From Armatimonadia bacterium (GTDB taxonomy: Bacteria; Armatimonadota; Zipacnadia; Zipacnadales; JABUFB01): 64,000 nt of DNA. This document shows, piece after piece, positions 105-64,000 of this stretch. The notes beneath the pieces were generated by a model. That model was not told where the DNA came from and did not search any database. It was given only the letters and a program-made list of their open reading frames with translations. Within the stretch, counting starts at the first letter, position 1. Each line of letters opens with the position of its first letter. The DNA is taken from positions 1 to 64,000 of the forward strand of contig JBDKVB010000016.1 in assembly GCA_039679385.1 (NCBI GenBank), read 5' to 3'. A program made the position numbers and the translations under genes.

Positions 105-360
105 ACCGATACTTCTTGCCGACCGGCCAAGAACCTCCTCCCCCCCCACGAAAAAGATGTGGGTAATGTATAGACGCGTGGCGAGGGGGAGTCGAGCGGC
201 AGCGAGACGGGGGTGAGGTCAAGGCCCGTGGCGCCCCATCCTCAGCCATCAAGAGGACACCCTTCTCTCGAGGTACTGACGGGCACCGGCTCGGTTCTGG
301 TCGACAGCTCTGGTTCCGTCCCTCACCAGGAAGTGGGTAACCGCCCAGGTCTGGCTCGCC
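105..360. other. non-coding stretch between IS fragment and bioY promoter
   Basis: No convincing gene is seen here. On the minus strand, 173-156 reads CTATACATTACCCACATC and lies about 70 bases outside the transposase start, so it may be the terminal inverted repeat of the IS element. The other end is outside the window, so this cannot be confirmed. The rest is GC-rich sequence without a recognised RNA motif. Confidence 0.3.
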
Positions 361-514: not shown

Positions 515-1087
515 ATGACGCAGGGAACACTGACCTTCGCAGTGCAGCAGGTCGTAACCAGGAAGTCGACGTGGGTTGAGCTTGGAGCTGTCTGTGGTGT
601 GGCGGGAGCTATGGCCCTTGCCGGACAAGTGCGAATCCCGCTTCCCTTCACGCCGGTGCCGCTGACCCTGCAGACCATGCTGGCACTGCTGTCGGGTGCA
701 GTTCTTGGAGCACGCACCGGCGCCCTGGGACAGGTGCTGTACCTGGGCCTGGGTGCAACGGGGCTGGGAGTGTTCGCGGGCGGGGCCAGTGGCCTCAGTG
801 GGGCGACCGCCGGCTACCTCGTCGGCTTCGTTGCAGCAGCGGCCGTCGTGGGGTTGATGACCCGGCGACCCTCGCACGCAAGGGTGGGCGCGGGGCTGCT
901 CGCCGGGACACTGGCGATCTACCTGTTCGGCGCCGGCTGGCTCGTCCTCGGACTGGGCCGAAGCGCTACGGAAGCAATAACCCTGGGCGTGATTCCGTTC
1001 TTGCCGGGCGACGCCATGAAGCTGGTAGTGGCAGGGATGTTGGCACAGCCGCTGCGCGCGATGTGGGGCCGTACTCGCGGAGCGTAG
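515..1087 (+). CDS. bioY: BioY, biotin ECF-transporter substrate-binding (S) component
   Basis: A 190-residue, very hydrophobic protein with about six membrane segments. It has the family signature near residues 35-60, where a RIPLPFTPVPLTLQT motif is followed by a Gly/Ala-rich helix. BioY binds biotin in the membrane and works with the shared ECF ATPases (EcfA, EcfA') and EcfT, or alone at high biotin. None of those partners is in this window. The ATG at 515 fits the usual family N-terminus; an in-frame start 30 bases upstream is possible. It is followed 24 bases later by a sirtuin gene, probably on the same transcript. The family call is secure. Confidence 0.93.
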   Translation: MTQGTLTFAVQQVVTRKSTWVELGAVCGVAGAMALAGQVRIPLPFTPVPLTLQTMLALLSGAVLGARTGALGQVLYLGLGATGLGVFAGGASGLSGATAGYLVGFVAAAAVVGLMTRRPSHARVGAGLLAGTLAIYLFGAGWLVLGLGRSATEAITLGVIPFLPGDAMKLVVAGMLAQPLRAMWGRTRGA

Positions 1088-43013: not shown

Positions 43014-46000
43014 CTATCTGTTCAGGTTGAGGGCGGTTGTCCCAGAGACCGTCTGCCCGTCCTCGCAATTGGCAGTGATGCGGAGCAGGTAGCGACCGCT
43101 GGGCACCCGTGTACCTGCCGAGCTGCGACCATCCCAGGCGAGCGTGGTGGTCGTGCCGCCGGAGACAGGTGTGGCAAGGGCAATCGAGCGGACGACGCGA
43201 CCAGCGACGTTGAGGACGTCGGCACGGACGGTGGCGTCCTTGCTCAGGGTGAAGACCACTTCAGCGCCGAGGCCACTGGTGTGCGCGGCCAGACTGCGCA
43301 CGGCGAGGGTACCGACGGCGTCGTCGCGATTGACCTCGAGAGAGAAGGCACGCTCGGAGCCGGCGTCCGCATCGAAGGTGTAGCCGGAGACCGTGCGCAT
43401 GTAGATGCGCTTGCCCGAGGCGAGGTCGACGAGGACCGGCTTGACGTCGGAAGGCAATCCGCTGAGATCGGGCCACTTGACGGTGACTGACCCGGCCTGC
43501 TGAGCCACGACCTTGACGGAGGCAGTGAAGCTCTGGGACGTGCGGTCGGCGAAGCAGGCTGCGGTGCGCGCCCCGTTAGCTCCGTCGAAGTAGAGGTCGA
43601 CGACCTGCGCCGGCGGTCCCACGATGGTGTTGAGAGCCGCGGCCTGTGGGCTGACGCCGACGAAGTTGTCGGTGTCGGCGCCGTTCTGGGTTTCGGCGGC
43701 AAGGCGCAGAGCCCAGTCAGCCTGGATAGCGGCGGGATTGGACGTCTGCGAAGAGACGACCGGCTTGGCGAACTGGAGGGTTCCGTCGCTGAAGGCGCGG
43801 ATGAATACGCCGCGGCCCTTGCGTAGGGTCTTGTCGGCGAAGCTGATGGTGGGGCTCACGAGCTTGTAGCTGCGCGTGAAGGCGTCGTAGGCCCACATGT
43901 AGTCACGGATCCAGTTGCGGGTAGCAGCACCTGCGAGCGTATCCGTGATTCCGGCGACGACCACAGAGAGGCCGGTGGTAGAGACGTCGGCAGGATAGGG
44001 GTTGCCGACCATGTTCCAGCCGGTGGTGAAGGACACCGGATAGGTGTCCTCGGTGGTAGGCAGTCCTGCGATGTCCACGGAGAGCGCACTGGACAGGGAG
44101 AGCCAGTATGCGCGGCCAAGGGCGTGCTGCAGGAAGCTATCGGAGGGGTTGGACTGATAGGTTCGGTAGGAGCTGGTGGCCGGATCGTAGCGTGCGAGCA
44201 GGAGGTCTGCCGCCGGGATCCCGAGGATGGTGGCCATGTCAGTGGACACGGGTGTCGCACCGATGGCGATCATCGACGTGCCGACCGGGAAGTTGAAGGT
44301 GTAGTTGGGGCTGGAGAAGACCGGGCCCGACGCCAGGACGGACGGGTTCTCGTTGCCGTCGGGAGCCACGGAGTCGGAGACATTGTCGGAGGCGGTGACG
44401 GCGTACCAGAACCTCGTGCCGTCAGCGGTGGGCTTGTCGACATAGGTCTGAAGGCCCACGTCGGTGATGGTGGCAAGGCGGGTCACACCGGTCTCGGTGA
44501 TATTGTTGAAGCTGGCCGAGGAGCGGTAGATATTGAAGCGCGCGAAGTCGAGAGGCGCCGTGTATCCGCTCCAGGAGAGTGTGATTGAGGAGCCGTTGTC
44601 ACCGGGAGTGTCGGCCGCGACGAGATTGGTCACCTGAGCCGGCGGAGCATCGTTGCGTGGGACGGCCGGGCCAGCAACCTTGGACTCGGTAACGTTGCCA
44701 GAGGCGTCCTGGACGGCCACCTTGTACCAATAGGAGAGACCGTCGGTGACGGTAGCGTCGGCGTAGGAGGTCGTGCCCTTGGGGAGCATGGAAGCGGTGA
44801 CCTTGGTGAAGGGACCGCTGGCTGAGCTGGCCCGGAAGACGTTGTAGCCGACGACGTCATTGGCTCCGCGACCGTCGTCACCGGACTTGGACCAGGTGAC
44901 GGTGGCGCTTCCGCCCTCATCGTTGGGGGTATCGACGGCCTGGATGGTCTTCGGCGCCAGCGGGAAGGTGATGTCCATGATGTCGAGGGTCATGGAAGCG
45001 CCGGAGTTGCTGATGTTGCGGACCACCAAGGGCGAAGTCGTGCCATCGTAGAGGGCTGCGGTCGGGTTGCTGGTGTCGTCGAAGGTGCGGTTGCCCGAGG
45101 TGCCAGGATAGGGGTCGCCGCCATCGCCCTCGTTGTTGTAGTGCTCGAGGTCGTAGCGGTTGTCAGCCTGCTCGAGAGCAACCTGATAATGGGAGATGGA
45201 GGGCAGGCCAGGGTACCACTGGCTGTCGTTGCCGGAGACGGAGTCGTCAACGTGGTAGATCAGCAGGCCGGCGCCGGGTAGCCCCGCATCGAAGCCGGTC
45301 TTCTGGCGGTTCTCGATGAGGAAGTACTCGCTGCCGGTGGTACCGGTGGCCTCGATCTTCATGATCCAAGGGTTGGTCTCGGTCTGGGGGACCACGACGC
45401 CCTGCTGGTGGACGGCGATGTTGGGTGTGATCCAGCCAAGGCTTGCTTTGCACCAAGCATCCATGTGCGCCGGAAGGTCGCCGGCGTTACCGTTCCAGCT
45501 CCCGCCAGCCATGAGTGACCAGTTGCCGAGGCCGCTCGAGTCGTAGCCGTAGTCGTAGAAGTCGGGCAGCCCGAGGGCATGCCCGTACTCGTGGCAGTAG
45601 ACGCCGATGGTGACGAGGGCCGTGCTGGGGTACTGGTGCTCCGGCTGGATGATGAAGCTGTTAACCTTGACGCCATCGTTGGTGGTGACTTCGCCGGTAC
45701 CATCACCAAAGGCCTGGGCGGAGTTGAGGTCCCAGCTGCAGGACCAGATGTTGGCAGCGGCAGCACCGTACTCTTCGCCTGTCCCCTGGTGGATGACGGA
45801 GACGCTGTCTACGTATCCATCCTTGTTCTGGTCGTAGGGGGCGAAGTTGAAGCCAGCAGCGTCGGCTGCTTTGATGGTCTCAATGACCAGTTCGGCGAGG
45901 TGCACATCGGAGCCACCGGCGCCGTTCTGGCCGTAGTAGTCGTGAGTGTTGGAGGCAGTGTACCAGCCGGCAACCCCGCCGGGCCCCGGGCCGACGGTGA

Positions 46001-46439
46001 ACTTGCCGCCCGAGACCTCCGTGTAGTAGGCCTTCATGCTCCGAGCACCGGAGAAGAGAAGGGTGTTGAAATCAGTGGGTGCGTAGGTTGTGGTGGTATC
46101 GGAGAAGTTGACGCACAGGACGGCGATGTTGTCGGTGCCTGTGGTGGGAATTCGCTGTGGCGACACCAGGGTTCGCCGCCGGGCAGAGGCAGCCGCAGTG
46201 GTCACGGGTCGCGAGGAGGGTAGCCAGCTGCCACTCCGGGGATCCTGAGCGATGATCTGTCCGTCGAGGGTCTGCCACCAGTGCCCGCGCTCGTCGCCGC
46301 GGAGGACGGCCTGGACCGTGGCGCCGCTGGGTTGGGTAAGGGTGTGCACAGTCGGCGCTGCAGGGACCGCAAAGGCCGCCGTTGATCCCCACAACGAAAG
46401 AGCCATTGCGAAGGCCAAGGCGAAGGTGGGTTTGGTCAC
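43014..46439 (-). CDS. secreted M6 (immune inhibitor A-like) metalloprotease with FN3 and FlgD-like domains
   Basis: 1141 residues. The signal peptide ends near residue 24 (GSTAAFA). The zinc motif HEYGH at 283-287 continues LGLPDFYDYG, which is the M6 signature. TTGIAVLCVNFSD-like and GYVDSVSVIHQGTGEEY segments match the same family. After the catalytic domain there are two FN3 domains (about 530-640 and 640-740), beta-rich modules, and a FlgD-type tail, WDGRSSAGTRVPSGRYLLRI. The start is a GTG at 46439 with GGGAGGA upstream; the open frame extends further without similarity. It lies 263 bases before the S8 gene on the same strand. Confidence 0.93.
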   Translation of the reverse strand: MTKPTFALAFAMALSLWGSTAAFAVPAAPTVHTLTQPSGATVQAVLRGDERGHWWQTLDGQIIAQDPRSGSWLPSSRPVTTAAASARRRTLVSPQRIPTTGTDNIAVLCVNFSDTTTTYAPTDFNTLLFSGARSMKAYYTEVSGGKFTVGPGPGGVAGWYTASNTHDYYGQNGAGGSDVHLAELVIETIKAADAAGFNFAPYDQNKDGYVDSVSVIHQGTGEEYGAAAANIWSCSWDLNSAQAFGDGTGEVTTNDGVKVNSFIIQPEHQYPSTALVTIGVYCHEYGHALGLPDFYDYGYDSSGLGNWSLMAGGSWNGNAGDLPAHMDAWCKASLGWITPNIAVHQQGVVVPQTETNPWIMKIEATGTTGSEYFLIENRQKTGFDAGLPGAGLLIYHVDDSVSGNDSQWYPGLPSISHYQVALEQADNRYDLEHYNNEGDGGDPYPGTSGNRTFDDTSNPTAALYDGTTSPLVVRNISNSGASMTLDIMDITFPLAPKTIQAVDTPNDEGGSATVTWSKSGDDGRGANDVVGYNVFRASSASGPFTKVTASMLPKGTTSYADATVTDGLSYWYKVAVQDASGNVTESKVAGPAVPRNDAPPAQVTNLVAADTPGDNGSSITLSWSGYTAPLDFARFNIYRSSASFNNITETGVTRLATITDVGLQTYVDKPTADGTRFWYAVTASDNVSDSVAPDGNENPSVLASGPVFSSPNYTFNFPVGTSMIAIGATPVSTDMATILGIPAADLLLARYDPATSSYRTYQSNPSDSFLQHALGRAYWLSLSSALSVDIAGLPTTEDTYPVSFTTGWNMVGNPYPADVSTTGLSVVVAGITDTLAGAATRNWIRDYMWAYDAFTRSYKLVSPTISFADKTLRKGRGVFIRAFSDGTLQFAKPVVSSQTSNPAAIQADWALRLAAETQNGADTDNFVGVSPQAAALNTIVGPPAQVVDLYFDGANGARTAACFADRTSQSFTASVKVVAQQAGSVTVKWPDLSGLPSDVKPVLVDLASGKRIYMRTVSGYTFDADAGSERAFSLEVNRDDAVGTLAVRSLAAHTSGLGAEVVFTLSKDATVRADVLNVAGRVVRSIALATPVSGGTTTTLAWDGRSSAGTRVPSGRYLLRITANCEDGQTVSGTTALNLNR

Positions 46440-46644
46440 GGGAGTCCTCCCTATGCTGCGGCGAGCAGTTGGTAGAAAAAGAATGCCGAGCACGCACGGC
46501 CGGGTTTGCGGCAGAAGGTATGGTCTGCGCGTCCGGTCGGCGCGTGGGGCACTTTGGATGCTGGTGTCAAGGACGGGACTCGCACGGACATCTCCTCCGG
46601 AGCTTGGGCGGGCCACTGAGGCTCAGCTTCGGAGGGCCTAGGTG
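46440..46644 (-). other. long untranslated leader of the M6 protease gene
   Basis: About 200 bases lie between the predicted +1 near 46638 and the GTG start. GC-rich, with no riboswitch class that I recognise. The only clear element is the ribosome binding site next to the start codon. Confidence 0.35.
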
Positions 46645-47145: not shown

Positions 47146-48654
47146 GTGCAGGAGCGACCGTGGCTCCTCGGTGAGGGGCATCTGCGAACCGGACGAGCGG
47201 GTGTGCGGGAGTTCGTGCAAGCTCCGGAGTACCTGGGACTTGGCGACACAGTGTTTCCGGGAGTGCTGGAGACGCTGGAGGAGATGTTCAGCGGCGGATA
47301 CGACGAAGCGGTGATCTGCTGGGGAATTGGGTCGGGCAAGTCATATCTGGGCGCGTTGGCGCTGGCGTACATGGCTCACTCGGTGCTGTGTCTGAGGGAT
47401 CCGCAACGGTCCCTGGGAGTAGCGCCGGGTAGCAGCATCGTGTTCCTGGTGGCGGCACCGAGCGCGAGGCAAGCACGGCAGGTGGTGTTTGCGACGGTGA
47501 AGCGCCAGGTGCAAACGTCGCCGTGGTTCCGGGCATACGCCCCACAGACGGCGTTTCTGGCGACGGAGATCCGGTTTCCGCAACAGGTTGCGCTCGTCGC
47601 CGGGAACTCCTCGACGACGTTCCCGCTGGGGTACAACGTGCTGGGCGCGGTGGTGGATGAAGCGGCATGGTTCACGGCGGAGGCTCAAGGCGAAGAGGAG
47701 AGTGTGGAGGAGGTCTACAACGGTCTGAAGCGGCGGGTGCTGAGCCGGTTCAATGACCGCGGGTTCGTACTGGTGATCAGCTCGCCACGAACCGGCGAGG
47801 ACTTCCTCGAACGCCGCCTGCGTGTGGCGGAGAGTGATCCGCGGGTGTTGGGATCGCGGCGGCCGACCTGGGAAGTGAGACCGGCGCGGATGTACTGCGG
47901 TGAGACCTTCCGATACGAGGGAATGGAAGTGCCCGTGGAGTACCGTCGTGAGTTTGAGGTGAACCCGCAACGGGCGCTACGAGACCTCGCGGCAAGACCG
48001 ACGGCAGCCCTGCACCCGTACCTGAGCGACTGGGAGTGTCTCGAGGCGGCGAAGGACGAGAGGCAGCGACACCCCTTCGATGCCCGGGGGCGGCTGGAGG
48101 AATGGTTCCGTCCGAAGGGCGGACAGACACGCTATGTGCACATTGACCTGGGACTGAAGCATGATGCCTGCGGGGTCGCGATGGCGTACTGCGAGGACTC
48201 TGCGGGAGAGGGTGGACGGCCCCAGGTGGTCGTGGAGCTGATGCACCGGATGAAGGCTCCGAAAGGTGGCGAGGTGGATCTGGCGACCCCGCGCGAGATC
48301 GTGCTTTCGCTGCGGGAGCGAGGGTTCCCCATCGGGCAAGTGAGCTACGACGGATGGCAGAGCGCGGACAGTCGTCAGATTCTCGGAAGGCATGGTGTAG
48401 CCACCCGCACAGTGTCCGTAGACCGGACGATGGAGGCGTATGAGACGCTGAAGGGGCTGCTCGTTGAGCGTCGGCTCCGCACCTACGCCTATCCTCCCTT
48501 TGAGGAGGAGATGCGGAGACTGGAGCTGGTGGCGGGTCGGAAGGTCGACCATCCGCCGGGAGGCTCAAAGGATGTGGCGGATGCTGTGGCGGGGGCTGTC
48601 TGCGAGGCTGTGAAGCGTGGGAGCGGACGTGGGATGAGAGCAACTGTAGTGTAG
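47146..48654 (+). CDS. terL: phage terminase large subunit
   Basis: 502 residues. This is the DNA-packaging motor. Walker A is WGIGSGKS (residues 59-66), and Walker B is VLGAVVDEAAWF with D171-E172. Coupling motif VISSPRTGEDF follows. The C-terminal RNase H-like nuclease starts VHIDLGLKHDACGVAMAY, where the first Asp would bind metal. It starts with GTG at 47146, preceded by GGGAG. No small subunit gene is seen just upstream, its usual place. It is the first gene of the plus-strand morphogenesis module. Confidence 0.9.
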   Translation: MQERPWLLGEGHLRTGRAGVREFVQAPEYLGLGDTVFPGVLETLEEMFSGGYDEAVICWGIGSGKSYLGALALAYMAHSVLCLRDPQRSLGVAPGSSIVFLVAAPSARQARQVVFATVKRQVQTSPWFRAYAPQTAFLATEIRFPQQVALVAGNSSTTFPLGYNVLGAVVDEAAWFTAEAQGEEESVEEVYNGLKRRVLSRFNDRGFVLVISSPRTGEDFLERRLRVAESDPRVLGSRRPTWEVRPARMYCGETFRYEGMEVPVEYRREFEVNPQRALRDLAARPTAALHPYLSDWECLEAAKDERQRHPFDARGRLEEWFRPKGGQTRYVHIDLGLKHDACGVAMAYCEDSAGEGGRPQVVVELMHRMKAPKGGEVDLATPREIVLSLRERGFPIGQVSYDGWQSADSRQILGRHGVATRTVSVDRTMEAYETLKGLLVERRLRTYAYPPFEEEMRRLELVAGRKVDHPPGGSKDVADAVAGAVCEAVKRGSGRGMRATVV

Positions 48655-48725: not shown

Positions 48726-48801
48726 GTGTTCCGGGTGAGCAGGCAGAGGCGGAGGGCACCTCCGGGACGCGGTGCCATCCAGTTCGGGAGGTAGCACGAG
48801 A

Positions 48802-49992
48802 ATGTCGAGTGTGCTGGCGAAAGCGCATGTGCTCGGAGAGACTGCACGCGGTGAGACGAAGCAGTTGCCGGAGTCACCGTGGTGCGGGCTGTATGAGGAC
48901 GGCACGGTGGTCGAGCCACCCTATGACCTTGACGCCCTGGCGGCGCTCTACGGGAGCAACGCAACCCACAAGGCATGTGTGGATGCGAAGGTCGCGACCG
49001 TGGTGGGGCTCGGGCACCGGTTCGTGAGCGTGAGTGCAGAGAGTAAGGACGAGGAACTGGCACGGTTGGAGGAGCTGTTCGGGTCGTGTAACCCGGAGAT
49101 GACCTTCACCGAGGTTATGCGCACCGTCTGGGCCGACGTGGAGACGATCGGCAACGGCTACCTGGAGATCACGCGGGACGCGCAGCGGCAGATCGACGGG
49201 TTCTACCACGTGCCCGGGACGACGGTTCGTGTGACGGGCGATCGAGGAGGCTACGTGCAGATCCGGGGCGCGCGGCGGCAGTGGTTCCGGGCCTTCGGCA
49301 GTCGCGGCCAGGGCGCAGAGGATGCGAGTGAGATCCTGCACTTCCGGAAGTACACACCGGAGTCGAGCTACTACGGGGTGCCGGACATCATCGCAGCGTT
49401 GCCCGCAATCGCCGGGGATAAGGCAGCGCGCGAGTACAACCTGGATTTCTTCGAGCACAACGCAGTGCCGCGGATGGCGATCATCGTCGAAGGCGGCCAA
49501 CTCTCGGAGGCCCTGCTACGGCAGATCCAGGGCTTCATGGAGAGCGAGGTCCGCGGTCACGGGCACAAGACGCTGGTGCTGGACGTCCCCGGCGATGGGG
49601 TGAAGGTGCGCCTGGAACCGCTGACGGTGGGCATGGCTGATGATGCGGCGTTCCTGGGATACCGCAAGGCGAACCGGGACGAGATCATGATGGTTCACCG
49701 GGTTCCGCCGAGCAAAGTGACGGTGATTGAGAACGCCAACCTGGCGAACAGCCAGGATCAGGACAAGACCTTCCGCGAGCAGGTGATCCGGCCCGAGCAG
49801 CGGGCGATCGAGTACCAGATGAACCGTCTGATCCGCGAGGCCCTGGGAATCCGGACGTGGGAGTTCCGGTTCCGCGAGATGGACCTGGGTGAGGAGCGGG
49901 AGCATGCGGAGATCGCTCGACTGTACCAGGAGATGGGCGTCTGGACGCCCGAGGAAGTGCGCGGGCATCTGGGTCTGAAGGCATCCGCCTAG
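48802..49992 (+). CDS. phage portal protein
   Basis: 396 residues, HK97/SPP1-type portal. A segment reading YLEITRDAQRQIDGFYHVPG, the motif ILHFRKYTPESSYYGVPDI, and VDLD-type HRVPPSKVTVIENANLANSQ are typical, as is the long helical C-terminus ending in an EEVRGHLGLKA tail. The portal forms the dodecameric entrance for DNA. It lies between terminase and prohead protease as in HK97-like phages. The ATG at 48802 is used; an in-frame start 10 codons upstream is less likely. Confidence 0.9.
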   Translation: MSSVLAKAHVLGETARGETKQLPESPWCGLYEDGTVVEPPYDLDALAALYGSNATHKACVDAKVATVVGLGHRFVSVSAESKDEELARLEELFGSCNPEMTFTEVMRTVWADVETIGNGYLEITRDAQRQIDGFYHVPGTTVRVTGDRGGYVQIRGARRQWFRAFGSRGQGAEDASEILHFRKYTPESSYYGVPDIIAALPAIAGDKAAREYNLDFFEHNAVPRMAIIVEGGQLSEALLRQIQGFMESEVRGHGHKTLVLDVPGDGVKVRLEPLTVGMADDAAFLGYRKANRDEIMMVHRVPPSKVTVIENANLANSQDQDKTFREQVIRPEQRAIEYQMNRLIREALGIRTWEFRFREMDLGEEREHAEIARLYQEMGVWTPEEVRGHLGLKASA

Positions 49993-50048: not shown

Positions 50049-50990
50049 GTGGCGATGGAGAGCGAGGAGCAGCAGGAATGGCGGTTCGAAGGGCTGGCGG
50101 CCTCGACCAGGATTGACCGCCAGCATGAGCGTCTGGGTCACAGGGCGCTGGAGAGCATGGTGCGCCGGCTGAGGGGCGAGACGGAGGGCGGCTCCGCGCA
50201 CAGGGGTGGCGGAAGGAGACCGGCCCTGACCCTGGGGCACCAGGGAAGAGACAGGACTGTACTGGGTGTGGTGGAGGAGAGCTGGGTCGATGAGGAAGGG
50301 CTGCACGTCCGAGGCCGGCTGGACCGAGGGCATGCTGAGGCCAAGAGCGTGTACGAGAACCTCAGGCACGGCGGGGAGTACGGGCTGAGTGTAGGCGGTC
50401 GCGTCACGGCAGCGCACCGAGTGTACGACGAATCGGCCGGGGAGGTGATCCGGGTGATCGACGATGTGACGCTGGATCATGTCGCAGTATGCAAGCCGGA
50501 GCAGGCGGCGAATCCGGCCACGTACCTGCGGGCGTTGGAGAAGGAGGGTGAAGCAGTGGAAGCAGAGGATGAGCCTGAGAGCAGAGAGGCAACAGAGGGC
50601 GCTGGTGAAGAGGCGAACGCGAGTGGGGCTACGCGTGGAGGGAAGCTCGGAGGCCTATTGCAGGAGCTGCGCCGAGTTCTAGGGCGTGGTGGCCCCAGGG
50701 CGCAGGAGACGGAGCCAGCAGAACCAGGGCCAAGTGACGAGGCCGATCCTCCCGGCGACCTGTGGGATGAGATGGAAGCGCTGGCACAGAAGCTGGAGGC
50801 GCTTGGTGGTCAGGTGGAGGCGCTGGAGAAGGCGATCGCTGAGGGCGAGCCATCCGGCGAGACGATGGAGGGCACGGCGCTGCGGCGCGACAGGAGCCTG
50901 CGTCGCAGCTTCGAGGCACAGCAGAGGACGGATGTGGAGTACGGACCCAAGGGGCATCAGGGAGCCCAACTGTGGAAGGGAGTGTTGTAG
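50049..50990 (+). CDS. HK97-family prohead protease, probably with fused scaffold
   Basis: 313 residues. The first 165 residues match the S78 prohead protease: an early RIDRQHERLGHRALESMV, a central strand-rich part with LTLGHQGRDRTVLGVVEESW, the conserved ENLRHGGEYGLSVGGRV carrying the likely catalytic Ser, and DHVAVCKPEQAANPATY. From 170 on it is a charged, Glu-rich helical region with LWDEMEALAQKLEALGGQVE, as expected for a delta or scaffolding domain that is removed on maturation. The stop touches the capsid start directly. Confidence 0.85.
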   Translation: MAMESEEQQEWRFEGLAASTRIDRQHERLGHRALESMVRRLRGETEGGSAHRGGGRRPALTLGHQGRDRTVLGVVEESWVDEEGLHVRGRLDRGHAEAKSVYENLRHGGEYGLSVGGRVTAAHRVYDESAGEVIRVIDDVTLDHVAVCKPEQAANPATYLRALEKEGEAVEAEDEPESREATEGAGEEANASGATRGGKLGGLLQELRRVLGRGGPRAQETEPAEPGPSDEADPPGDLWDEMEALAQKLEALGGQVEALEKAIAEGEPSGETMEGTALRRDRSLRRSFEAQQRTDVEYGPKGHQGAQLWKGVL

Positions 50991-51932
50991 TTGAGCGCGG
51001 AGGAACTGCTGCAGAAGGCTGTAGACACGACGGATCTGGAGGCTGGTGGCGTACTCAGCACCCAGCAGGCGAACCGGTTCATCGACCTGGTTGCGGACCA
51101 GTCAACGATGGTCAAGCAGGCGCGGGTCGTTCGGATGCGGTCTGCGTCGATGGAACTGGACCGGATTGGGACATCCGGTCGCGTGAGCATGCTGAGGAGC
51201 GAGGGTGTCGCACCGGGGTCTCTGAGTGAGCCGGCATTCTCGAAGGTGAGCCTGTCGGCGGTCGAGGTCATGACCCCCTTCGAGATCACCTTTGAGGCGC
51301 TGGAGGACAGCATCGCCGGTGGTGAGCTGGAGAGCACCGTTATCACGGCGATGGCCAAGCAGACGGCAACGGACCTTGAGGAGCTCGCCATCCAGGGCGA
51401 CAAGACCTCGGCCGACACCTTCCTGCACGGGATGAACGGGTGGCGGAAGCTCGCAGGCGACGGGCACGTGGTGAACGTCACCGGCGACACGCTCGACAAG
51501 AGCGTGCTGCAGGCGATGTACAGGGCACTTCCGGACAAGCACAAGCGCAATCACCGCGATCTGCGATTCTTCTTCGCGCCGGCCTGCGTCCAGGACTGGC
51601 ACGACAGCTTCGCGGACCGGCCGACAGCCGGTGGCGACAGTGCGCTGCAGGGCATCGCGACGCCGCCCTATATGGGCGTGCCGGTGATCTCGGTTCCCAG
51701 CATCCCGACGAACCTGAGTGGTGTCAGTGAGTATGTGGGGACCAACCTCTCGTACGGTTTCCTGACGCCGCGTGAGAACCTGGTGTTTGGGGTTCACCGG
51801 GAGATCCGGATCGACAAGGACCGCGACATCCTGCGAGGCGTGAACATCTACGCGATCACCACGCGGGTAGCCGTTGAGTTCGAGAACGACGACGCGGTGG
51901 TCGTGGCTGTGAACCTTGCCCAGACTGCCTAG
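50991..51932 (+). CDS. major capsid protein, HK97 fold
   Basis: 313 residues. It has the family order: an N-arm (LQKAVDTTDLEAGGVLSTQQ), an E-loop and spine-helix region (FEITFEALEDSIAGGELEST), and a P-domain with DKHKRNHRDLRFFFAPACVQ. The C-terminal part ITTRVAVEFENDDAVVVAVN is the strand that ends many HK97-type capsids. The start is a TTG at 50991 immediately after the protease stop. The long N-terminal arm of HK97 itself is absent, consistent with a separate scaffold domain in the protease gene. Confidence 0.88.
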   Translation: MSAEELLQKAVDTTDLEAGGVLSTQQANRFIDLVADQSTMVKQARVVRMRSASMELDRIGTSGRVSMLRSEGVAPGSLSEPAFSKVSLSAVEVMTPFEITFEALEDSIAGGELESTVITAMAKQTATDLEELAIQGDKTSADTFLHGMNGWRKLAGDGHVVNVTGDTLDKSVLQAMYRALPDKHKRNHRDLRFFFAPACVQDWHDSFADRPTAGGDSALQGIATPPYMGVPVISVPSIPTNLSGVSEYVGTNLSYGFLTPRENLVFGVHREIRIDKDRDILRGVNIYAITTRVAVEFENDDAVVVAVNLAQTA

Positions 51933-52044: not shown

Positions 52045-55000
52045 GTGCGTGCCCGATTGGATCGGAGACAGTTTTTGTGGATCGATGCTCGCGGCGCCGG
52101 GGCGTGGTATCCGGCAGCGGGGAACATCCGTGCAGGAGCCGGTGAAAAGGGCACACTAGCCATCTGGCAGTGGCCCCAGTACACCCACGACAACACCGAC
52201 CTGTACTGGCGGCTAGAGGTCAACAGCTCGAACTACATCCGGCAGTGCAGCGGGCGAACGCTCGGTGTGTGCTCAAACGGCACGGTCTGGTACGCGAGCA
52301 CGGAGTGGAAGACGACGAACGTGGCGTGGGAGCACCTGGTCTACACGTGGGATTTCACAGTGGCAAACCAGGGGCACCTGAGGGTGTACTGGAACGGCGT
52401 GGACGCGGGCTACCACATTGACACCGCAAACGCGCCAGTGGGAACGCCGACGAAGCTGCAGTTGGGTCCAGTGATCGGGACCATAAGCCACGGCCCGCAC
52501 ATGATGCACTCGATGGCAGTGTGGGACGATGCGATGACTGGGGCCCAGGCAGCCGCCCTCTGGCAGGAAGGCCTTCGGTACCGGGTCACGGGAGCCGAGG
52601 GGAACGGGAACCTGACGTTCTACGCGGGCTTCAACGACCGATTGAACGCGGACTACGCCGCCGGGGACGGAACCTTCCATGTGGATGGTGCAGCGGACCG
52701 GTACTGCCTGGTGGATGACGGAGCCCGGGAGCAGGGGATACGGCGGTTCCTGATTGGGATGCCCCGACACGACTTCAGCGAGGACGACCGTTTGCCCCTG
52801 GGCGTTCCGTGCGCTCTGACCCTGGACGCGGGACGCGCGTCCTACGTACAGGACACCAACTACACGAACTATGCTGAACTGAAGGTGCTCCCGGGGTATG
52901 GCGGCGACCGCCGGATTGGAGCAGCGATCCCGGGACGTCCCGTGCTGGACAACTGGTCAGTTCCACGACCGGGCACGTACCGGCAGCGAGTGCACGTTCC
53001 GAAGGACAACCCGTCGGGGCGATACATCCGGCTCGGGCCCGTCGACTATTTGCACTACCCGACGCTGGCAACGAACGTGTATGACCAGTGGACGACCGGG
53101 CGCTCGTTCTCGGTGGTCAGCGACGCGGGGAACACTGCGACCAGCTTCAAGACGGACTTCGCGGACGGGATACCGTCAGACTACTGGAATGGCGCGTCTA
53201 TCACGTTCCTGACGGGGAACTGCGCGGACCGGCGCGTAAAGGCAGCCGACTACGACGCTACGACGAAGGTGCTCACGCTGGACAGTCCCTTGCCCGCGAT
53301 TCCTTCGGGCGGGAGCCTAGGTGTGGCGGACCACGGGGCACGGCTGACCGGGTGCAGGTCGTGGGGCAGCACGCAGCAGGGGCAGCGGATCCCCGAGATG
53401 ACGATGGACGCCTTGCTGTGGGAGTTCCACGGCGACCAGCGGTACTTCACGGAGCTGGAGTGGCAGTACGCAGAAGAGGGCAACACGGACTTCGTGTCGC
53501 CGAATGTTCTGCGGTACGACCGAGGTCGGACGGCGTTCATGGATGGCAGCGGGACCTCGTGGTACGAGAATGGCGCCTGCTACGGGAAGCCGTCGACGTG
53601 GGAGACGAACACGCTGGAATGCCGGGTTCTCCTGGAGCGGGTTGAGGTTGAGGGGCCGACGACGTACCAGGTGCTGCGCCGGGACGCGAATGGTGCCGGG
53701 CCGGATCTGGCAGACAACTTCATGCTGGCCCAGGCGGATGGGCAGAGTCCAAAGGCCTGGCGAGTGAAGCGGTTGTCGCGCAAGATCACGCGTCCGACGA
53801 AGCAGACCAGCCCTGAGGCTGTGCGAGCGGATCTGACCGCGTCCGGGACGTGGCGTCACGACATTGGGTCGGCGCCGATTCCAGTGCTGTACGACGAGGC
53901 AACTGAAGAGTCCGTTGCACTGATCGTTGGGGTGGACAGCAGCGGTGTGTCACGGGCTGGGTACATACGCGGGAGCTGGAACACAGAGACGGGACGCATC
54001 CGGTGGGTGGACGACACGCCTCCGGCAGGGAAGCAGAATCCCTTCCTGGCGGTTTCGGACATGCGGCCAGGTAAGGAGAGGGATGTCGCCTGCAATACGG
54101 GATACCCCGTGTCCGTGGTTCGGTGCCCTGACGGCACGTGGTCGCTAGTGTATGTCGCGCAGTCGTCGCACCCAGACCATTTCATGGGCTACCAGCTCTG
54201 CGGTGCGCCGGACCGGTGGTCCTTCAGTCGCGAGAAGCACTGGTGGGACGGGAACCCCATCTGTCCGATCCTGGGTGGCGCGGATCGCCTGGCGGCGCAG
54301 CTGAACGGGTTCGGGGTGTGGGCGAACCGAGACGCGGATTGGAAGATCATCGAGAACCCGTACGAGAAGGCAGGGGCGAGGCGCTACTGGGGCATCGCAC
54401 GCGGGAAGTCGATTCACGACCGGATGACCACGAACTGCGCGGACCTGCGGCCGGTGATCGGGGTTCGCGGCAGCGACCCGCGTTCGCTGCAGCCGCTGCC
54501 GCACGGGAACACGGTGTCGCCACTCGCGGGGCCTCTCGTTCATGCGGGGGAGTGCGCAGTGCTGGACCAGGCGGACTGCCTGGGGCTGTACACGGATACG
54601 GCGACCGCTATGTCGTCGGGAGTGTACTGCTACGTTAGCGAGGACGGAGTGCACTTCCAGCAGTTCGCGAACGACGGGCAATGGATCCCGAGGTCGGAGT
54701 TGTCCGGGGAGCCGAGTCGCCTGGTGCCGGACCGTCCGTTCCAGTTGGGTGATAGGCGGGTCTACTACTACGAATCGTGGCCGTGGGTGAACTTCGCTTC
54801 GATCCGTCTGAGCGGCGAGGCCTGGTACGAGCTGAGCGATGGTCAGACCACCGGGCTTCTGGAGACGCCGCTGCTTGAGAAGCCCGCAGAAGGCTGGGGG
54901 ACGCTGCGCCTGAACTGCACACCGGGAGCGGGGCATATCGCGGTTGAGGTGCTGGACGGGACGACGGAGCAGCCGATGGCGGGGTTCACGGCGGCGGACT

Positions 55001-55476
55001 TCGATGGGTGCGTGGATGCGGTCTCGGTGGAAGCACTGTGGAAGGGCCAACGTCTGAGTTCGCTGACGACGGGCCTGGTGCGGTTGCGGTTCGTGTTCGG
55101 ACGGGCGAGCAGCGCAGAGGCGACGCCGAAGCTGTATGCGTGGCGCATCGCAGAAGCTCCGGAAGCGGCGCGACCCCGAGTCAGTCAGTTGCGCGTCGAA
55201 GGACAGGAGAACCCGACGAGCATCGCGGACCCGACGCCGGAGTTCGCCTGGCAGTACGCGCACGATGAGGGTGGGGCTCAGAGCGCCTATCAGGTGATCG
55301 TGGCGTCGAGTCGGGAGCTGCTGGAGCAAGGGATCGGTGATGTGTGGGACAGCGGGGTCGTGTCCTCCAGCGAGAGCCGTGCGGTGTATGACGGCGGGTC
55401 TCTGACCAGTGAGCACCTGTACCGGTGGCGCGTGCGGGTACGCGATGAGAAGGGAACGTGGTCCGAGGAATGGTAG
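52045..55476 (+). CDS. LamG / beta-propeller / FN3 multidomain protein inside the head gene cluster
   Basis: About 1143 residues from a GTG at 52045 (1160 from the ATG at 51994, which lies in the capsid hairpin). The first 230 residues look like a concanavalin/LamG jelly roll (NVAWEHLVYTWDF; LRVYWNGVDAGYHID; MMHSMAVWDDAMTGAQAAAL). Residues of about 600-940 resemble a GH43/sialidase-type propeller. The block after it (GWGTLRLNC; AVEVLDGTTEQPMAGFTAAD; VRLRFVF) is found at the end of such glycosidase-like proteins in Planctomycetota and relatives. The end resembles the N-terminal FN3 of alpha-L-rhamnosidases. No signal peptide. Its position suggests a capsid decoration or fibre that binds surface glycans. 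Confidence 0.75.
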   Translation: MRARLDRRQFLWIDARGAGAWYPAAGNIRAGAGEKGTLAIWQWPQYTHDNTDLYWRLEVNSSNYIRQCSGRTLGVCSNGTVWYASTEWKTTNVAWEHLVYTWDFTVANQGHLRVYWNGVDAGYHIDTANAPVGTPTKLQLGPVIGTISHGPHMMHSMAVWDDAMTGAQAAALWQEGLRYRVTGAEGNGNLTFYAGFNDRLNADYAAGDGTFHVDGAADRYCLVDDGAREQGIRRFLIGMPRHDFSEDDRLPLGVPCALTLDAGRASYVQDTNYTNYAELKVLPGYGGDRRIGAAIPGRPVLDNWSVPRPGTYRQRVHVPKDNPSGRYIRLGPVDYLHYPTLATNVYDQWTTGRSFSVVSDAGNTATSFKTDFADGIPSDYWNGASITFLTGNCADRRVKAADYDATTKVLTLDSPLPAIPSGGSLGVADHGARLTGCRSWGSTQQGQRIPEMTMDALLWEFHGDQRYFTELEWQYAEEGNTDFVSPNVLRYDRGRTAFMDGSGTSWYENGACYGKPSTWETNTLECRVLLERVEVEGPTTYQVLRRDANGAGPDLADNFMLAQADGQSPKAWRVKRLSRKITRPTKQTSPEAVRADLTASGTWRHDIGSAPIPVLYDEATEESVALIVGVDSSGVSRAGYIRGSWNTETGRIRWVDDTPPAGKQNPFLAVSDMRPGKERDVACNTGYPVSVVRCPDGTWSLVYVAQSSHPDHFMGYQLCGAPDRWSFSREKHWWDGNPICPILGGADRLAAQLNGFGVWANRDADWKIIENPYEKAGARRYWGIARGKSIHDRMTTNCADLRPVIGVRGSDPRSLQPLPHGNTVSPLAGPLVHAGECAVLDQADCLGLYTDTATAMSSGVYCYVSEDGVHFQQFANDGQWIPRSELSGEPSRLVPDRPFQLGDRRVYYYESWPWVNFASIRLSGEAWYELSDGQTTGLLETPLLEKPAEGWGTLRLNCTPGAGHIAVEVLDGTTEQPMAGFTAADFDGCVDAVSVEALWKGQRLSSLTTGLVRLRFVFGRASSAEATPKLYAWRIAEAPEAARPRVSQLRVEGQENPTSIADPTPEFAWQYAHDEGGAQSAYQVIVASSRELLEQGIGDVWDSGVVSSSESRAVYDGGSLTSEHLYRWRVRVRDEKGTWSEEW

Positions 55477-56126
55477 CTGAGGGCATCTTCGGGATGGGGC
55501 TGTGGAGCTCCTACTGCAGCACTGCAGACGTGCTGCGTCTGCTGGCCGGATACGATCTGAGCGGAGTTGGCGACAGCGACCAGGTCCAGACACGGGTACA
55601 GGAGTTGATGGCGGCAGCGCGTTGTGCCCTGGAGCATGAGGCGGGCCGGGACTTCCTATACCACGCGGATGACGAAGTGGTGGTCGACGGTAAGGGTCGG
55701 GACAGGCTGATCCTGGCTGCGAGTGGCATCTACCCCGTGGTGAGGATTCAGGAGCTGCGAGTTGGCGGCGAGGTGGTTCCGGCAGACGAGTACGTCACCT
55801 TCGGTGAGGAGGGGACGATTCGGCTGAAGGAGGAGGGGAAGCTGCTGGGGGCCTTCCCGCGCGGCGTGATGAACGTGCACCTCACGGTTGACTGGGGCTA
55901 TGTGACGGCGCCTGCAGACATTGCGCTGGCCCAGGCGAAGCTGGTGGCGGCAGAGGTGTTGGCGGAGGGAACTGGAACGCAGGGAGCGGTCTCAAGCCTG
56001 CGGATCGGGGACTACGCGGTGAGCTACGACGAGGGTGGCGAGAATGCGGGGACAGTCCTGAGGTGGGCCTCGGAGGCTCGCAAGGCGGCCAGGTCGTACC
56101 GACGAATCGGTCTCGTGGCGGTCTGA
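55470..56126 (+). CDS. head-tail connector protein (gp6-like)
   Basis: About 218 residues. The N-terminal helices (CSTADVLRLLAGYDLSG; VQTRVQELMAAARCALEHEA) and a beta-rich centre with IYPVVRIQELRVGGEVVPAD are the pattern of gp6/YqbG connector proteins that bind below the portal. The C-terminal helix holds QAKLVAAEVLAEGTG. The ATG at 55470 overlaps the previous stop. GTG 55458 and ATG 55494 are alternatives; the last has the better-placed GAGGG ribosome binding site. Confidence 0.7.
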   Translation: MVAEGIFGMGLWSSYCSTADVLRLLAGYDLSGVGDSDQVQTRVQELMAAARCALEHEAGRDFLYHADDEVVVDGKGRDRLILAASGIYPVVRIQELRVGGEVVPADEYVTFGEEGTIRLKEEGKLLGAFPRGVMNVHLTVDWGYVTAPADIALAQAKLVAAEVLAEGTGTQGAVSSLRIGDYAVSYDEGGENAGTVLRWASEARKAARSYRRIGLVAV

Positions 56127-57651: not shown

Positions 57652-58557
57652 ATGGCAGTTGCGTTGTCGCTAGAGGGGTCGTTTGGGTTCGCACTGCAGG
57701 AGACGAAGGGAACGTATGTGGCGCCGAGTACCTGGCTGCCGTTGACGGGTGTCAACGCCGACCACGGTGAGACGCTGAGCTGGAAAAAGAACTACGTGGT
57801 GCTGGATACGGCGGACGGTCGCGCGTATCAGACCAGCTACTACTCCGCCGGGGAATGGGCAGAGGGCTCTGTGCGAGTGCCGATCGTGCCCGGGAGTCTG
57901 AGCTCCCTGTTTTCGTGGATCCAGGATCGGGATGTGGACAGCCAGGGCAAGTGGGCCTCGATCCTTGTGGATTGCATCAACGACGTCAAGAAGCTGACGG
58001 ATGTGAAGGTGCGGACGGCGACCTTCGACTTCGTGAAGGGTGAACCGGTGACCTGCAGCCTGGAGCTGTGTGGGTTGCGGATGGAGAGAGGAACGTCGGC
58101 CACTCCGAGCATCCCGGTGGCGGCGCCGTACGTGTTCCGCGAAGCGAAGGTGGAGATCGCCACGGCCGGTGGTGCGCTGGTCGAGGACGTGAACTGCGAG
58201 GCGATCCAGGTCGTGCTGGACAACGTGGTGGAGGACCCGGAGGAGGGTCTGCGGCTGCGCGAGAGTGGTGAGCCACTGCAACTGTACAACCTGGCCGGCG
58301 TGCGCTGCCGAGGAGCGCTGTCCCGGGACTTCGTGGACAGCAAGGTCTTCGCGGACTTCGCGGCGGGTCAGGAGGCGGCACTGCGTCTGACCCTGGAGCG
58401 TGGCGCGACAGTGGCGACGGTGACGATGCCGCGAGTGCTGTACACGTCGAGCGATCTGGGGCTTCCGGGTTCGCATGAGCGGCGGATTTCGGAGAAGGTG
58501 GACTTCGTGGCGCTTGGCAGCACCGATGGTCTGACGGCACCTGTGGTGCTGGCATGA
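57652..58557 (+). CDS. phage tail tube protein
   Basis: 301 residues, beta-rich. The start AVALSLEGSFGFALQETKGT followed by YVAPSTWLPLTG is the pattern of siphovirus tail tube proteins (phage_tube family). GEPVTCSLELCGL and ETATAGGALVEDV-like segments with alternating strands follow. NSPEEGLR-type (VEDPEEGLRLRESGEPLQLY) and a final RISEKVDFVAL match the duplicated tube fold. The stop overlaps the start of the chaperone gene as ATGA, so expression is coupled. Confidence 0.82.
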   Translation: MAVALSLEGSFGFALQETKGTYVAPSTWLPLTGVNADHGETLSWKKNYVVLDTADGRAYQTSYYSAGEWAEGSVRVPIVPGSLSSLFSWIQDRDVDSQGKWASILVDCINDVKKLTDVKVRTATFDFVKGEPVTCSLELCGLRMERGTSATPSIPVAAPYVFREAKVEIATAGGALVEDVNCEAIQVVLDNVVEDPEEGLRLRESGEPLQLYNLAGVRCRGALSRDFVDSKVFADFAAGQEAALRLTLERGATVATVTMPRVLYTSSDLGLPGSHERRISEKVDFVALGSTDGLTAPVVLA

Positions 58558-59069
58558 GTCGGGGCTATGTAGCGAGAGGCGATGAGCTGGAGGCCTCGCA
58601 ATGGGTCATTGTGGCGGCTGCTGAAGGGGGCACCGTGCGGTTCGAAGCGCCGCCAGTAGCCCCTGGAGGCTGCTGGGTGGAAGTGCGTGCCTTGACCCAC
58701 CGTGAGGCGCTGGAACGCGAGAGCGTCGGCGGGTACGAGGAGTACGAACTCAGCGACGGAGGACGAGTGCTGTCGGTCGTGCGGCGGTGTGATCGCTGGG
58801 CGATGGCGGAGTACGACTATCGGTATTCGCTGGTGGACTGGTGCCTTCCGGTGCGGCAGTACGACGGCTCGACGGGTCTGCAGTGTGGGAGCGAGCTTGC
58901 GGAGGAAGAGCGTGTGGACCTGCTCGCAGCGATGCCGCCAGCCCTGGCGGAATGGGTCGGGGAGTGCATCGATCGCGTGAACTTGAGGAATGCCGAGGGC
59001 GAAGGTGCACTGGAGGACGCGAAAAAAAAGCCGCCGACCTGGTGTGCGGAGGCAGCCGAGGCCTGCTGA
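58554..59069 (+). CDS. tail assembly chaperone, short (0-frame) form
   Basis: 171 residues. Lambda-G-like chaperone that coats the tape measure in other siphoviruses. It has a beta start (SQWVIVAAAEGGTVRF), then RALTHREALERESVGGY and a helical second half. Identification rests on location directly after the tail tube and on the frameshift site near its end (59024-59030). After that site only 12 more codons are read in this frame (PPTWCAEAAEAC). Confidence 0.7.
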   Translation: MSRGYVARGDELEASQWVIVAAAEGGTVRFEAPPVAPGGCWVEVRALTHREALERESVGGYEEYELSDGGRVLSVVRRCDRWAMAEYDYRYSLVDWCLPVRQYDGSTGLQCGSELAEEERVDLLAAMPPALAEWVGECIDRVNLRNAEGEGALEDAKKKPPTWCAEAAEAC

Positions 59070-59380
59070 GTGTGCGAGAAATCGTGGCCGTCGAGAGGTC
59101 TGAGGTTGGGGGCCGGGTTCTGCGGGAAGGCTCGGACTTCGCAACCCAGGAGGAGCTGGAAGGCAAGGCGGCCGGACCTCGCCTGGAACTGCTGGAGCCG
59201 CTCGCAGCGCGGTTGGCGATGCTGGCCTGCGAAGACTGGAGCGCCGCGTCCATCTGCGGGTGGCGGGGATTGGAGAGGCTGGACGGGATGCCGGCATGGA
59301 GGGCTGAGCTATGGGAACACGTGTGCAGAGCGGCGTCGCCGTGGATCGGTCCGTGTGCGTCCGACGGCGTGGGCTGCTGA
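58554..59380 (+). CDS. tail assembly chaperone, long (-1 frameshift, G-T type) form
   Basis: About 275 residues if ribosomes slip -1 at 59024-59030. The fusion keeps residues 1-159 of the short form, then reads AADLVCGGSRGLLSVREIVA and on to a stop at 59378. The extension contains a helix-rich part (LELLEPLAARLAMLACEDWS; MPAWRAELWEHVCRA) of the size and type of the T domain. The coding frames fit exactly, and the 0 frame stops just beyond. A GTG at 59072 could also start the second part by itself, so the frameshift is strongly suggested but not proven. Confidence 0.6.
59012..59030 (+). promoter_or_regulatory. programmed -1 frameshift site (A AAA AAG) with upstream SD-like sequence
   Basis: Eight adenines (59022-59029) followed by G give the heptamer A AAA AAG in the correct phase: the 0-frame codons are AAA AAG. 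This is the E. coli dnaX slippery sequence. GGAGG at 59012-59016 lies 7 bases upstream, where an internal Shine-Dalgarno stimulates slipping. GC-rich sequence with several short inverted repeats follows and could form a stimulatory stem. Confidence 0.75.
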
Positions 59381-60003
59381 AGGTGACGTCGGTGCGTGTG
59401 GGACTGCTCCGGCAACTGTCACGGGGCAGACGACGGGCCACCTGGGAGACGGAGAGCAAGGCGGTGGCTGAGACCGGAGTTAGGGTGAGCGCGTCGCGCC
59501 TGAGGACGAGAAGGGCTGCGCGGCAGAGCGGAACCGGAAGGCTGAGGACCTGGTCGGGAGCCTGCGAAGCGGGAAGCGCTGTACACCGGCAGAGCAGGGC
59601 ATCGGTGCAGACGTCCATGGGCAAGGTCGGCCATCAGAGGCGGCAGGGGCCCTCGGGAGCGGTTGCAGAGGCCTGGAAACGAGGGCGCCAGGCGACTCGG
59701 CAAGGGCCGGCAGAGCCAAGGCTGCGTCGAGGGCAAGGCGTGTCGGCGAGGACGATGGCGCCAAGGGAATCAGGTCACAGGGCGACGAGCAGCTCGGCCC
59801 TCGGAAGTGCGGGCATGGGCTTCCGGGGAAGCAGAGGAAGGGCAAGAGTGCCCGGGCGATGCCCGAAGGTTGCGTCTGAGAGCTTAGGCGTGAGGAAGAG
59901 CGCCCGGGCGGCAGCCACGGGAAGTGCGGGAACCCGAGTCGACCTCGGACAGCGGTCCTGGGACGGTTTCATGCGGGCGTGTCGGCTGGACCTGGCGCGG
60001 TAG
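59311..60003 (+). CDS. very basic Arg/Ala/Gly/Ser-rich ORF in the tape-measure position, doubtful
   Basis: 230 residues with no recognised fold and about one residue in six an arginine. It has no long coiled coil or membrane helix, so it does not look like a tape measure protein. In favour of it being real: GGAGGG sits 7 bases before the ATG at 59311, the frame is the only open one across 59381-60003, and it fills the gap between chaperone and the next structural gene. Against: the arginine codons AGG, AGA and CGA are used more than in neighbours, and it overlaps the frameshifted chaperone by 70 bases. An alternative start is GTG 59383. Confidence 0.4.
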   Translation: MGTRVQSGVAVDRSVCVRRRGLLKVTSVRVGLLRQLSRGRRRATWETESKAVAETGVRVSASRLRTRRAARQSGTGRLRTWSGACEAGSAVHRQSRASVQTSMGKVGHQRRQGPSGAVAEAWKRGRQATRQGPAEPRLRRGQGVSARTMAPRESGHRATSSSALGSAGMGFRGSRGRARVPGRCPKVASESLGVRKSARAAATGSAGTRVDLGQRSWDGFMRACRLDLAR

Positions 60004-62886: not shown

Positions 62887-63209
62887 GGGTTGTGAGTGAG
62901 GCCTGCATGCTGTCCTTGCCGGTTGCCGTGGAGCGGGACGGTCTTTTGTACGTGGTAGGTATCCGGGACGGGTTCTACCGGGTCCGGCGCAGCAGTGATG
63001 GCGGTGCAACGTGGCTCCCCTATTCCGGCGGTGAAGTGGAGAGGCCGGTGGCGGAAGCCTGCACGGGCCAGAGAGCAGCGCTGGTCAAGCTGACGGGGCA
63101 GGGCGCGCCACTTCTGGCATGTGTAGCGGGATGGCCGGAACTAGTGGTCTACGCCTCCTACGATGACGGGGAGACGTGGGAAGCGGAGAGCACGATTGGC
63201 GGAGCGTAG
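62883..63209 (+). CDS. Asp-box (BNR/sialidase-repeat) small protein
   Basis: 108 residues. Two Asp-box motifs are present: SSDGGATW near residue 37 and SYDDGETW near residue 92. Such motifs mark propeller blades in sialidases and related proteins. The blade-like end of the 942-residue protein and this product look like parts of one propeller encoded by two genes. The GTG at 62883 overlaps the upstream TGA by 4 bases. Another GTG in frame at 62892 is possible. Confidence 0.65.
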   Translation: MRVVSEACMLSLPVAVERDGLLYVVGIRDGFYRVRRSSDGGATWLPYSGGEVERPVAEACTGQRAALVKLTGQGAPLLACVAGWPELVVYASYDDGETWEAESTIGGA

Positions 63210-63289: not shown

Positions 63290-64000
63290 ATGGCGAAACG
63301 CATCTATCCGGGCGCACGAGTGCGGCTGTACGAGCCGGGCCGGCAGTACATACAGGAGTTTGATGGATTCGGGCGGTACGAGGTGGTGGGTGACCTCTGG
63401 CGAGCCGGGCGCGTGCAGTGCAATACGGTGTCGTCGGAGACGCTGGGGCTTGGTGCGGGACTGGGCAGCCACAGTGAAGCCTCGGCAGCAATGCTCCTGG
63501 ACCACCGCGAGCTGAACCTGGCAGTGTGCCGACCGTTCCTGGACAGCACGCAGTCGGTGGGTCTGGACCAGTTCGATCTGTACGGCGGTCGCTGGCAGGG
63601 TCTAGAAGGCCTGGGGATCGGGAAAGAGGTGCGGCTCTACCAGTCGGACGGCAACGCCGAGATCGCAACGGGAGCTGTGAGCCGCTTCACGTTGCCGCGC
63701 AACCCGGTCATCTGTGTTGGGCTGCAGAGGGTTCCGCCACGGGCGGGGCACTCGTGGGCCTCTCAGCCTCCAAGCACAGAGGTGCAACTGGGAGTCGGCT
63801 CGGCGAAGGAATGGTCGCTGGTGGTCCCCTATGGTGGCCCGGCCTTCCTGAGGCGGCGACGAGGCGGGGTGTGGGAGAGTGTGCCTGGTCAGGGGCACGG
63901 GAGGAGGATCGGCAACCTGGAGGGGAACGCCTCCGGGCAGCGCGTTCTGCTGTGGCTGGCGGTGTGGCGAGGGAAACTCGTGGCCTCGACCGATGGCTTC
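63290..64000 (+). CDS. structural protein of the virion module, partial (runs off right edge)
   Basis: 237 codons are visible from the ATG at 63290, preceded by GGAAGG, and the frame stays open to the last base. The sequence starts MAKRIYPGARVRLYEPGRQY and is rich in short strands (RYEVVGDLWRAGRVQ; EVQLGVGSAKEWSLVVPYGG). No family is recognised. It follows the Asp-box gene by 80 bases on the same strand and is probably another tail or fibre protein. The true length is unknown. Confidence 0.65.
   Translation, partial: MAKRIYPGARVRLYEPGRQYIQEFDGFGRYEVVGDLWRAGRVQCNTVSSETLGLGAGLGSHSEASAAMLLDHRELNLAVCRPFLDSTQSVGLDQFDLYGGRWQGLEGLGIGKEVRLYQSDGNAEIATGAVSRFTLPRNPVICVGLQRVPPRAGHSWASQPPSTEVQLGVGSAKEWSLVVPYGGPAFLRRRRGGVWESVPGQGHGRRIGNLEGNASGQRVLLWLAVWRGKLVASTDGF

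Follow-up and report, generated by a model that had tools for sequence, protein, structure and literature searches.

The DNA analysed here, referred to throughout as the window, is a 64,000-nucleotide stretch of an Armatimonadia contig (JBDKVB010000016.1). On its plus strand, between the genes for an HK97-type capsid protein and a head-tail adaptor, lies one large gene encoding a LamG-propeller-Ig protein (hereafter the LamG protein; Table 1). Its frame is open and intact from an ATG at 51994 to the stop at 55476 (1160 codons). Because alignments with homologues begin only at residue ∼18–24, the start is probably near 52045, where a GTG is plausible; the protein is 1143–1160 aa long, by start 52045 or 51994. 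The 3′ end of the gene overlaps the start of the adaptor gene by 19 nt, as it does in most homologues. Full-length homologues with 33–56% identity were recovered from ∼25 other genomes, and dN/dS was 0.17–0.18 in two close pairs; these results rule out a chance ORF. The large gene that the original prediction placed between capsid and connector is therefore present as an intact ORF with Phage_capsid and phrog_442 neighbours. In one relative (G031; L033:8233-11445) the gene is split into three overlapping frames, reflecting either sequencing error or decay.

Table 1. Features of the module and of related loci. Positions refer to the window unless a locus is named.
Feature	Position	Strand	Evidence or remarks
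Large terminase (TerL), first module gene	47146..48654	+	phrog_2 5.6e-20; homologues 50–57%
Portal protein	48772..49992	+	Pfam Phage_portal 1.6e-44; 60–68% across order
Prohead protease (S78 family)	50049..50990	+	Pfam 2.1e-5, phrog_80 4.6e-11
HK97-type major capsid protein	50991..51932	+	Phage_capsid (Pfam) 3e-11, phrog_1623 1.5e-82; 63–73% across order
LamG-propeller-Ig protein	52045..55476 (open from 51994)	+	ORF, Pfam, homologues, AF2 models
LamG / pentraxin-like lectin fold	52069..52569, residues ∼26–192	+	Pfam Laminin_G_3, profile, Foldseek
Five-bladed beta-propeller	53878..54834, residues ∼629–947	+	AF2 sub-domain model, Foldseek
Beta jelly-roll-like domain	54850..55152, residues ∼953–1053	+	DSSP strands of AF2 models
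Ig_Rha78A_N domain	55180..55467, residues 1063–1158	+	Pfam 4e-22; 40% identity to host GH78 N-terminal domain
Head-tail adaptor	55458..56126	+	phrog_442 2.8e-17
Conserved neck-position protein, 180 aa	56266..56808	+	Position; homologues in order
Conserved neck/tail-terminator-position protein, 230 aa	56905..57597	+	Position; homologues in order
Tail tube protein	57652..58557	+	Pfam Phage_tube_2 3.6e-11; 57–71% across order
Tail assembly chaperone, two frames	58554..59380	+	A-rich slippery site ∼59022 (AAAAAAAAG), −1 frame on to 59380
Short low-complexity ORF, 230 aa, tape-measure position	59311..60003	+	Weak; putative assignment
Large tail/baseplate-position protein, 942 aa	60058..62886	+	CarboxypepD_reg-like, Pfam 6.2e-5, below cut-off; 45–57% in order
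100-aa protein, Asp-box-like motifs (SSDGGATW, YDDGETW)	62907..63209	+	Sequence; conserved
758-aa tail-position protein, start	63290..64000 (to 65566 on contig)	+	phrog_1887 (tail) 0.011, weak; 45–55% in order
jag-yidC end of module, family f1	L003:6004-8376 (contig 68003-70378)
Glycosyltransferase genes, family f3	L027:3315-4166, L027:6570-7475, L078:4059-5111 (G005)		Equivalents in G015, G018

The gene belongs to a module of ∼20 kb that runs from terL at 47146 to ∼66524, beyond the window end, with small ORFs continuing to 67928. The order is terL, portal, S78 protease, HK97 capsid, LamG, adaptor, two neck-position genes, tail tube, chaperone, a short low-complexity ORF, genes for 942-, 100-, 758- and 235-aa proteins, and small membrane-type or holin-like ORFs. 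Pfam and PHROG matches mark terL, portal, protease, capsid, adaptor and tail tube as phage-type particle genes, known at the level of genes, and TerL contains a Walker A motif (GIGSGKS). Most genomes checked have the chaperone's slippery A run in this position too, with a −1 frame extension as at 59022–59380 of the window. A search for a tape measure gene of normal length found none; the short low-complexity ORF, whose C-terminus (like ‘LDLAR’, LxLxR-like) recurs in relatives, is the sole candidate and suggests a very short tail. GC content is even throughout the window, and no tRNA was found in it. Upstream of terL, on the minus strand (43014-46616), is a gene for a large predicted secreted protein that, on reading, appears metalloprotease-like with FN3-like repeats.

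Domain assignments for the LamG protein drew on Pfam, profile searches and AlphaFold2 (AF2) models. The Laminin_G_3 match (residues 63–185) has a Pfam value of 3e-5, below the cut-off, and the same domain is matched by 8/15 homologues (best 6e-16). The N-terminal part also gave a profile match to a SAP-like pentraxin (8e-4), and its nearest solved structures in Foldseek were pentraxin and laminin G domains. The propeller is visible by structure alone. An AF2 model of the whole protein was fair (pLDDT 73.9) and weak in this region; a separate sub-domain model was therefore made (residues 566–1062, 25 homologues; pLDDT 86.7, pTM 0.88). We take its predicted strands to form five blades, with a beta jelly-roll after them, and the nearest solved structures were GH43, sialidase, GH130 and GH32 proteins. 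The structure check that had been proposed thus returned a five-bladed propeller of GH43/GH130/sialidase type, and the predicted LamG and propeller domains, typical of carbohydrate-active proteins, were confirmed by Pfam in homologues, the AF2 model and Foldseek.

The C-terminal Ig_Rha78A_N domain was matched in 15/15 aligned homologues. A rhamnosidase-type FN3 end had been predicted; the module is indeed C-terminal and rhamnosidase-related, but it is the Ig-like PF25788 rather than FN3. The host genome encodes its own GH78 alpha-L-rhamnosidase, with an N-terminal Ig module 40% identical to this one. Despite the homologous module, the LamG protein differs from GH78 enzymes in lacking the catalytic domain (its Pfam matches are Ig_Rha78A_N and Laminin_G_3 only) and in carrying PF25788 at the C-terminus, not the N-terminus. 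Single-domain matches to this module are common in the phylum. C-terminal matches in ∼160 genomes from elsewhere in the phylum, beyond this class, were rejected as relatives of the whole protein, since they comprise the Ig domain alone, mostly in frames of 850–1150 aa. Large phage proteins of Caudoviricetes (BFVD matches) share a LamG/concanavalin-like domain, but with low TM-scores over the whole length and no common architecture shown.

The original prediction gave binding or trimming of surface glycans as a plausible role, and the propeller's resemblance to GH43, GH130, GH32 and sialidases, together with an Ig module common to GH78 enzymes, could indicate a working glycosidase that trims them. 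The likeness to these propellers is one of modelled fold, at 8–16% sequence identity and with five blades where sialidases have six; the LamG protein also differs from them in showing, by sequence and DSSP, no clear conserved catalytic set and in its place within a phage-type structural module. Acids conserved throughout a 25-row alignment (D574, D673, D/E674, D728, D740, D/E764, D828, D/E883, D/E884 and E942) fall mostly at blade turns or in Asp-box-like motifs, and family f6 has lost acids near inner-strand starts, for example those of ELPGE ahead of blade five. The proposed check of active-site residues found no acid that all homologues conserve where the inner strands begin, as placed in this alignment by sequence and DSSP, not coordinates. 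Such placement is an indication, not proof, against an active site, and a trimming enzyme appears quite improbable. Because the conserved acids mark no clear active site in every homologue, binding seems likelier than hydrolysis, and attachment to surface glycans is, by analogy, our best guess at function; the trimming part of the claim was not borne out. The LamG protein also evolves fastest of the eight genes measured (2.65× rpoB, compared with 0.88× for the capsid), as might be expected for exposed or binding proteins.

All genomes compared were draft MAGs, and contigs bearing the capsid gene are labelled Candidatus Zipacnadia, Armatimonadetes or candidate division WS1. The host order was represented by 41 genomes, that of the window among them, and 30 gave relatives of LamG, capsid or portal (G019 being counted by a portal fragment only). 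Among the 19 genomes with ≥90% completeness and ≤5% contamination, the module was present in 16 and absent from G004, G006 and G007. The full-length LamG protein is single-copy in nearly every genome having one; capsid and portal are likewise single-copy, the exceptions being matches interrupted by broken frames and distant portals that belong to other phages. The arrangement terL-portal-protease-capsid-LamG-adaptor-(two genes)-tube-chaperone, followed by the 942-, 100-, 758- and 235-aa genes, is syntenic in four families (f1, f3, f4 and f6), and most of the module is present in G042, which belongs to a different order of this class, with a capsid 58% identical. A separate insertion of the LamG gene, which would have spoken against the original prediction, is ruled out at this locus by synteny across the order and by the match between trees; throughout the order, and also in G042, the gene has a fixed place between capsid and adaptor.

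In long contigs host genes lie on both sides of the module, which is thus endogenized. In f1 (G000 and G002, long contigs) jag-yidC follows directly; in f6 (G013 and G031) rpmH follows directly, and then yidC-jag in G031. An rpmH-yidC-jag neighbourhood is common to f1 and f6, with the operon inverted between them, and the flanks of f3 and f4 differ. In those f3 and f6 genomes that were read, the module is followed by an Amidase_2 endolysin gene; in the f1 genomes it is not. In f3 genomes, GT4 and GT9 glycosyltransferase genes are inserted between portal and protease, between capsid and LamG, and downstream of the 235-aa gene.

Host families, and most genus pairs, came out alike in trees built from rpoB, from six core module genes together and from the LamG protein. 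The rpoB tree shared 18/22 splits with that of the core genes and 19/22 with that of LamG, while shuffled labels never gave more than 4 common splits in 2000 trials. Mantel correlations with rpoB were 0.82 for LamG and 0.69 for the capsid, and were also significant within f3 and f6. We excluded G035 from the split and distance tests: its module nearly matches that of G026 though its rpoB does not, and its bin is 8% contaminated. The two modules (L039 and L040) share ∼99.7% DNA identity, through contamination or recent transfer. Module genes have dN/dS values of 0.07–0.24, indicating purifying selection; the pair G030/G037 was discarded, as a misaligned broken frame gave nonsense values. By these comparisons the module is passed mostly from parent to offspring, co-diversifying with its hosts. 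The gene, its domains, its fixed place, intact frames under purifying selection, single copy and descent with the host are all directly supported.

Tree agreement could alternatively reflect host specificity, if the modules were ordinary temperate or lytic phages of this order with LamG as a head decoration. All recognised genes have tailed-phage homologues, IMG/VR lists some of the contigs as viral, and the near-identity of the G026 and G035 modules could be a recent transfer. Set against this are a single module in each genome, tree congruence that extends to genus pairs and host flanks conserved in two families; moreover, neither the module nor the adjacent genes listed for ten genomes, whose flanks were searched in part, showed a recognisable integrase, repressor or replication gene. 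We consider such phages unlikely, and the LamG gene is probably not an ordinary phage gene, since it is fixed in a vertically inherited head-and-tail set.

Comparisons with viral databases bear on the same question. Named phages gave only capsid and portal matches at ∼33–41% identity, with none to the LamG or tube proteins; INPHARED gave no LamG match. Single-sequence scans of viral and genome contigs with the LamG protein found nothing, alignments being needed. No full-length phage genome carrying the LamG gene was found among named phages or in IMG/VR, a further point against ordinary phages. Three IMG/VR contigs do carry LamG: L130 and L131 match stretches of the G013 and G035 host contigs at 100% identity, and L132 is a distinct relative. 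With 2/3 being exact slices of bacterial MAG contigs, we rejected the reading of those two matches as free phage. A capsid scan of IMG/VR added six short capsid-only contigs; tracing to host slices covers the LamG contigs. That such modules are listed as viruses in viral databases is a warning.

We compared the module with known gene transfer agents (GTAs). Proposed criteria are tailed-phage homologues for caudovirion-like particles, mostly vertical inheritance and full endogenization, and further the packaging of mostly random host DNA, an inability to package the whole of its own gene set, and delivery to other cells (PMC9662315). On those that sequence can address, the module qualifies, having phage-type particle genes, endogenization and co-diversification. 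As in RcGTA of Rhodobacter capsulatus (structure: PMC7296036), there is a single head and tail gene cluster that descends with its host, and a short gene in the tape-measure position. The head spike fibre of RcGTA binds capsule polysaccharide, as studied experimentally, and its gene adjoins capsule genes (PMC10218006); for the Zipacnadia LamG protein, sugar binding on the head is only proposed, and in f3 it is glycosyltransferase genes that lie between capsid and LamG. The RcGTA spikes (Rcc01079/Rcc01080) consist of a jelly-roll base and a 325-aa fibre, whereas here a single protein of ∼1140 aa is encoded beside the capsid gene. RcGTA belongs to a different phylum, we claim no sequence relation, and the Zipacnadia module is known from its genes.

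Our preferred reading, to which we assign a probability of about 0.6, places the LamG protein in the head region of a domesticated, vertically inherited, GTA-like particle of Ca. Zipacnadia, where it would bind glycans. The fuller statement, at roughly even odds, is of an independently domesticated, undescribed GTA across Ca. Zipacnadia with a head-region LamG-propeller-Ig adhesin of ∼1140 aa, bearing a module related to host rhamnosidases. We infer that particles are produced and package host DNA: the module would give rise to a small tailed particle, into which terminase and portal would pack DNA, and lysis genes would release it. Sited on the head or neck, the LamG protein would then bind envelope or capsule glycans of kin cells, and tail-mediated delivery would follow, much as RcGTA uses its head spike fibre.

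Co-descent and purifying selection alone do not show DNA transfer, and a vertically inherited, phage-derived particle might serve another use, bacteriocin-like or empty. Such a non-carrier seems improbable, however, as none of terminase, portal, protease and capsid has been lost, TerL retains its Walker A motif, and terL, portal and capsid are constrained when a tail-only device would need none of them. Other points count against a GTA-like reading: three good genomes (G004, G006 and G007) are without the module, its chromosomal position is common to f1 and f6 only, and no endolysin gene follows it in the f1 genomes. The G026/G035 near-identity, the G014 homologue and the broken G031 LamG gene weigh in the same direction.

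The location of the protein within the particle is a separate matter. In G014 (family f2; L037) the LamG homologue adjoins genes of tail type, NlpC/P60-CHAP among them, that belong to another module, which leaves a head decoration, as originally proposed, less than certain, even though the gene's fixed place between capsid and adaptor agrees with it. That homologue, next to a tail-lysozyme-like gene and other tail-type genes, and a weak Foldseek similarity to podovirus tail-hub propellers would fit a tail or neck adhesin instead. Elsewhere, where neighbours are readable, the LamG gene lies between capsid and adaptor, away from tail genes, and we regard a tail or neck position as less likely, if worth keeping in mind; a head-region protein remains our preference.

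Three independently exapted GTA groups were recognised in 2022, in Alphaproteobacteria and spirochaetes (PMC9662315). In the open-access literature on Armatimonadota and their prophage capsids, on Zipacnadia and on UBA5377, we found no report of a GTA or such element, and the main text of the 2023 description of class Zipacnadia does not mention phage, virus or gene transfer (PMC10290634). Order-wide vertical inheritance of the whole module, which formed no part of the original prediction, gives the locus its wider interest, as a GTA-like module descended with a whole Armatimonadota order would be a further, probably independent case. If true, it would mean that uncultured bacteria of anoxic sediments, spread across the globe, exchange genes through particles of their own making, and it would offer one large protein, open to expression and testing, as a candidate for kin recognition.
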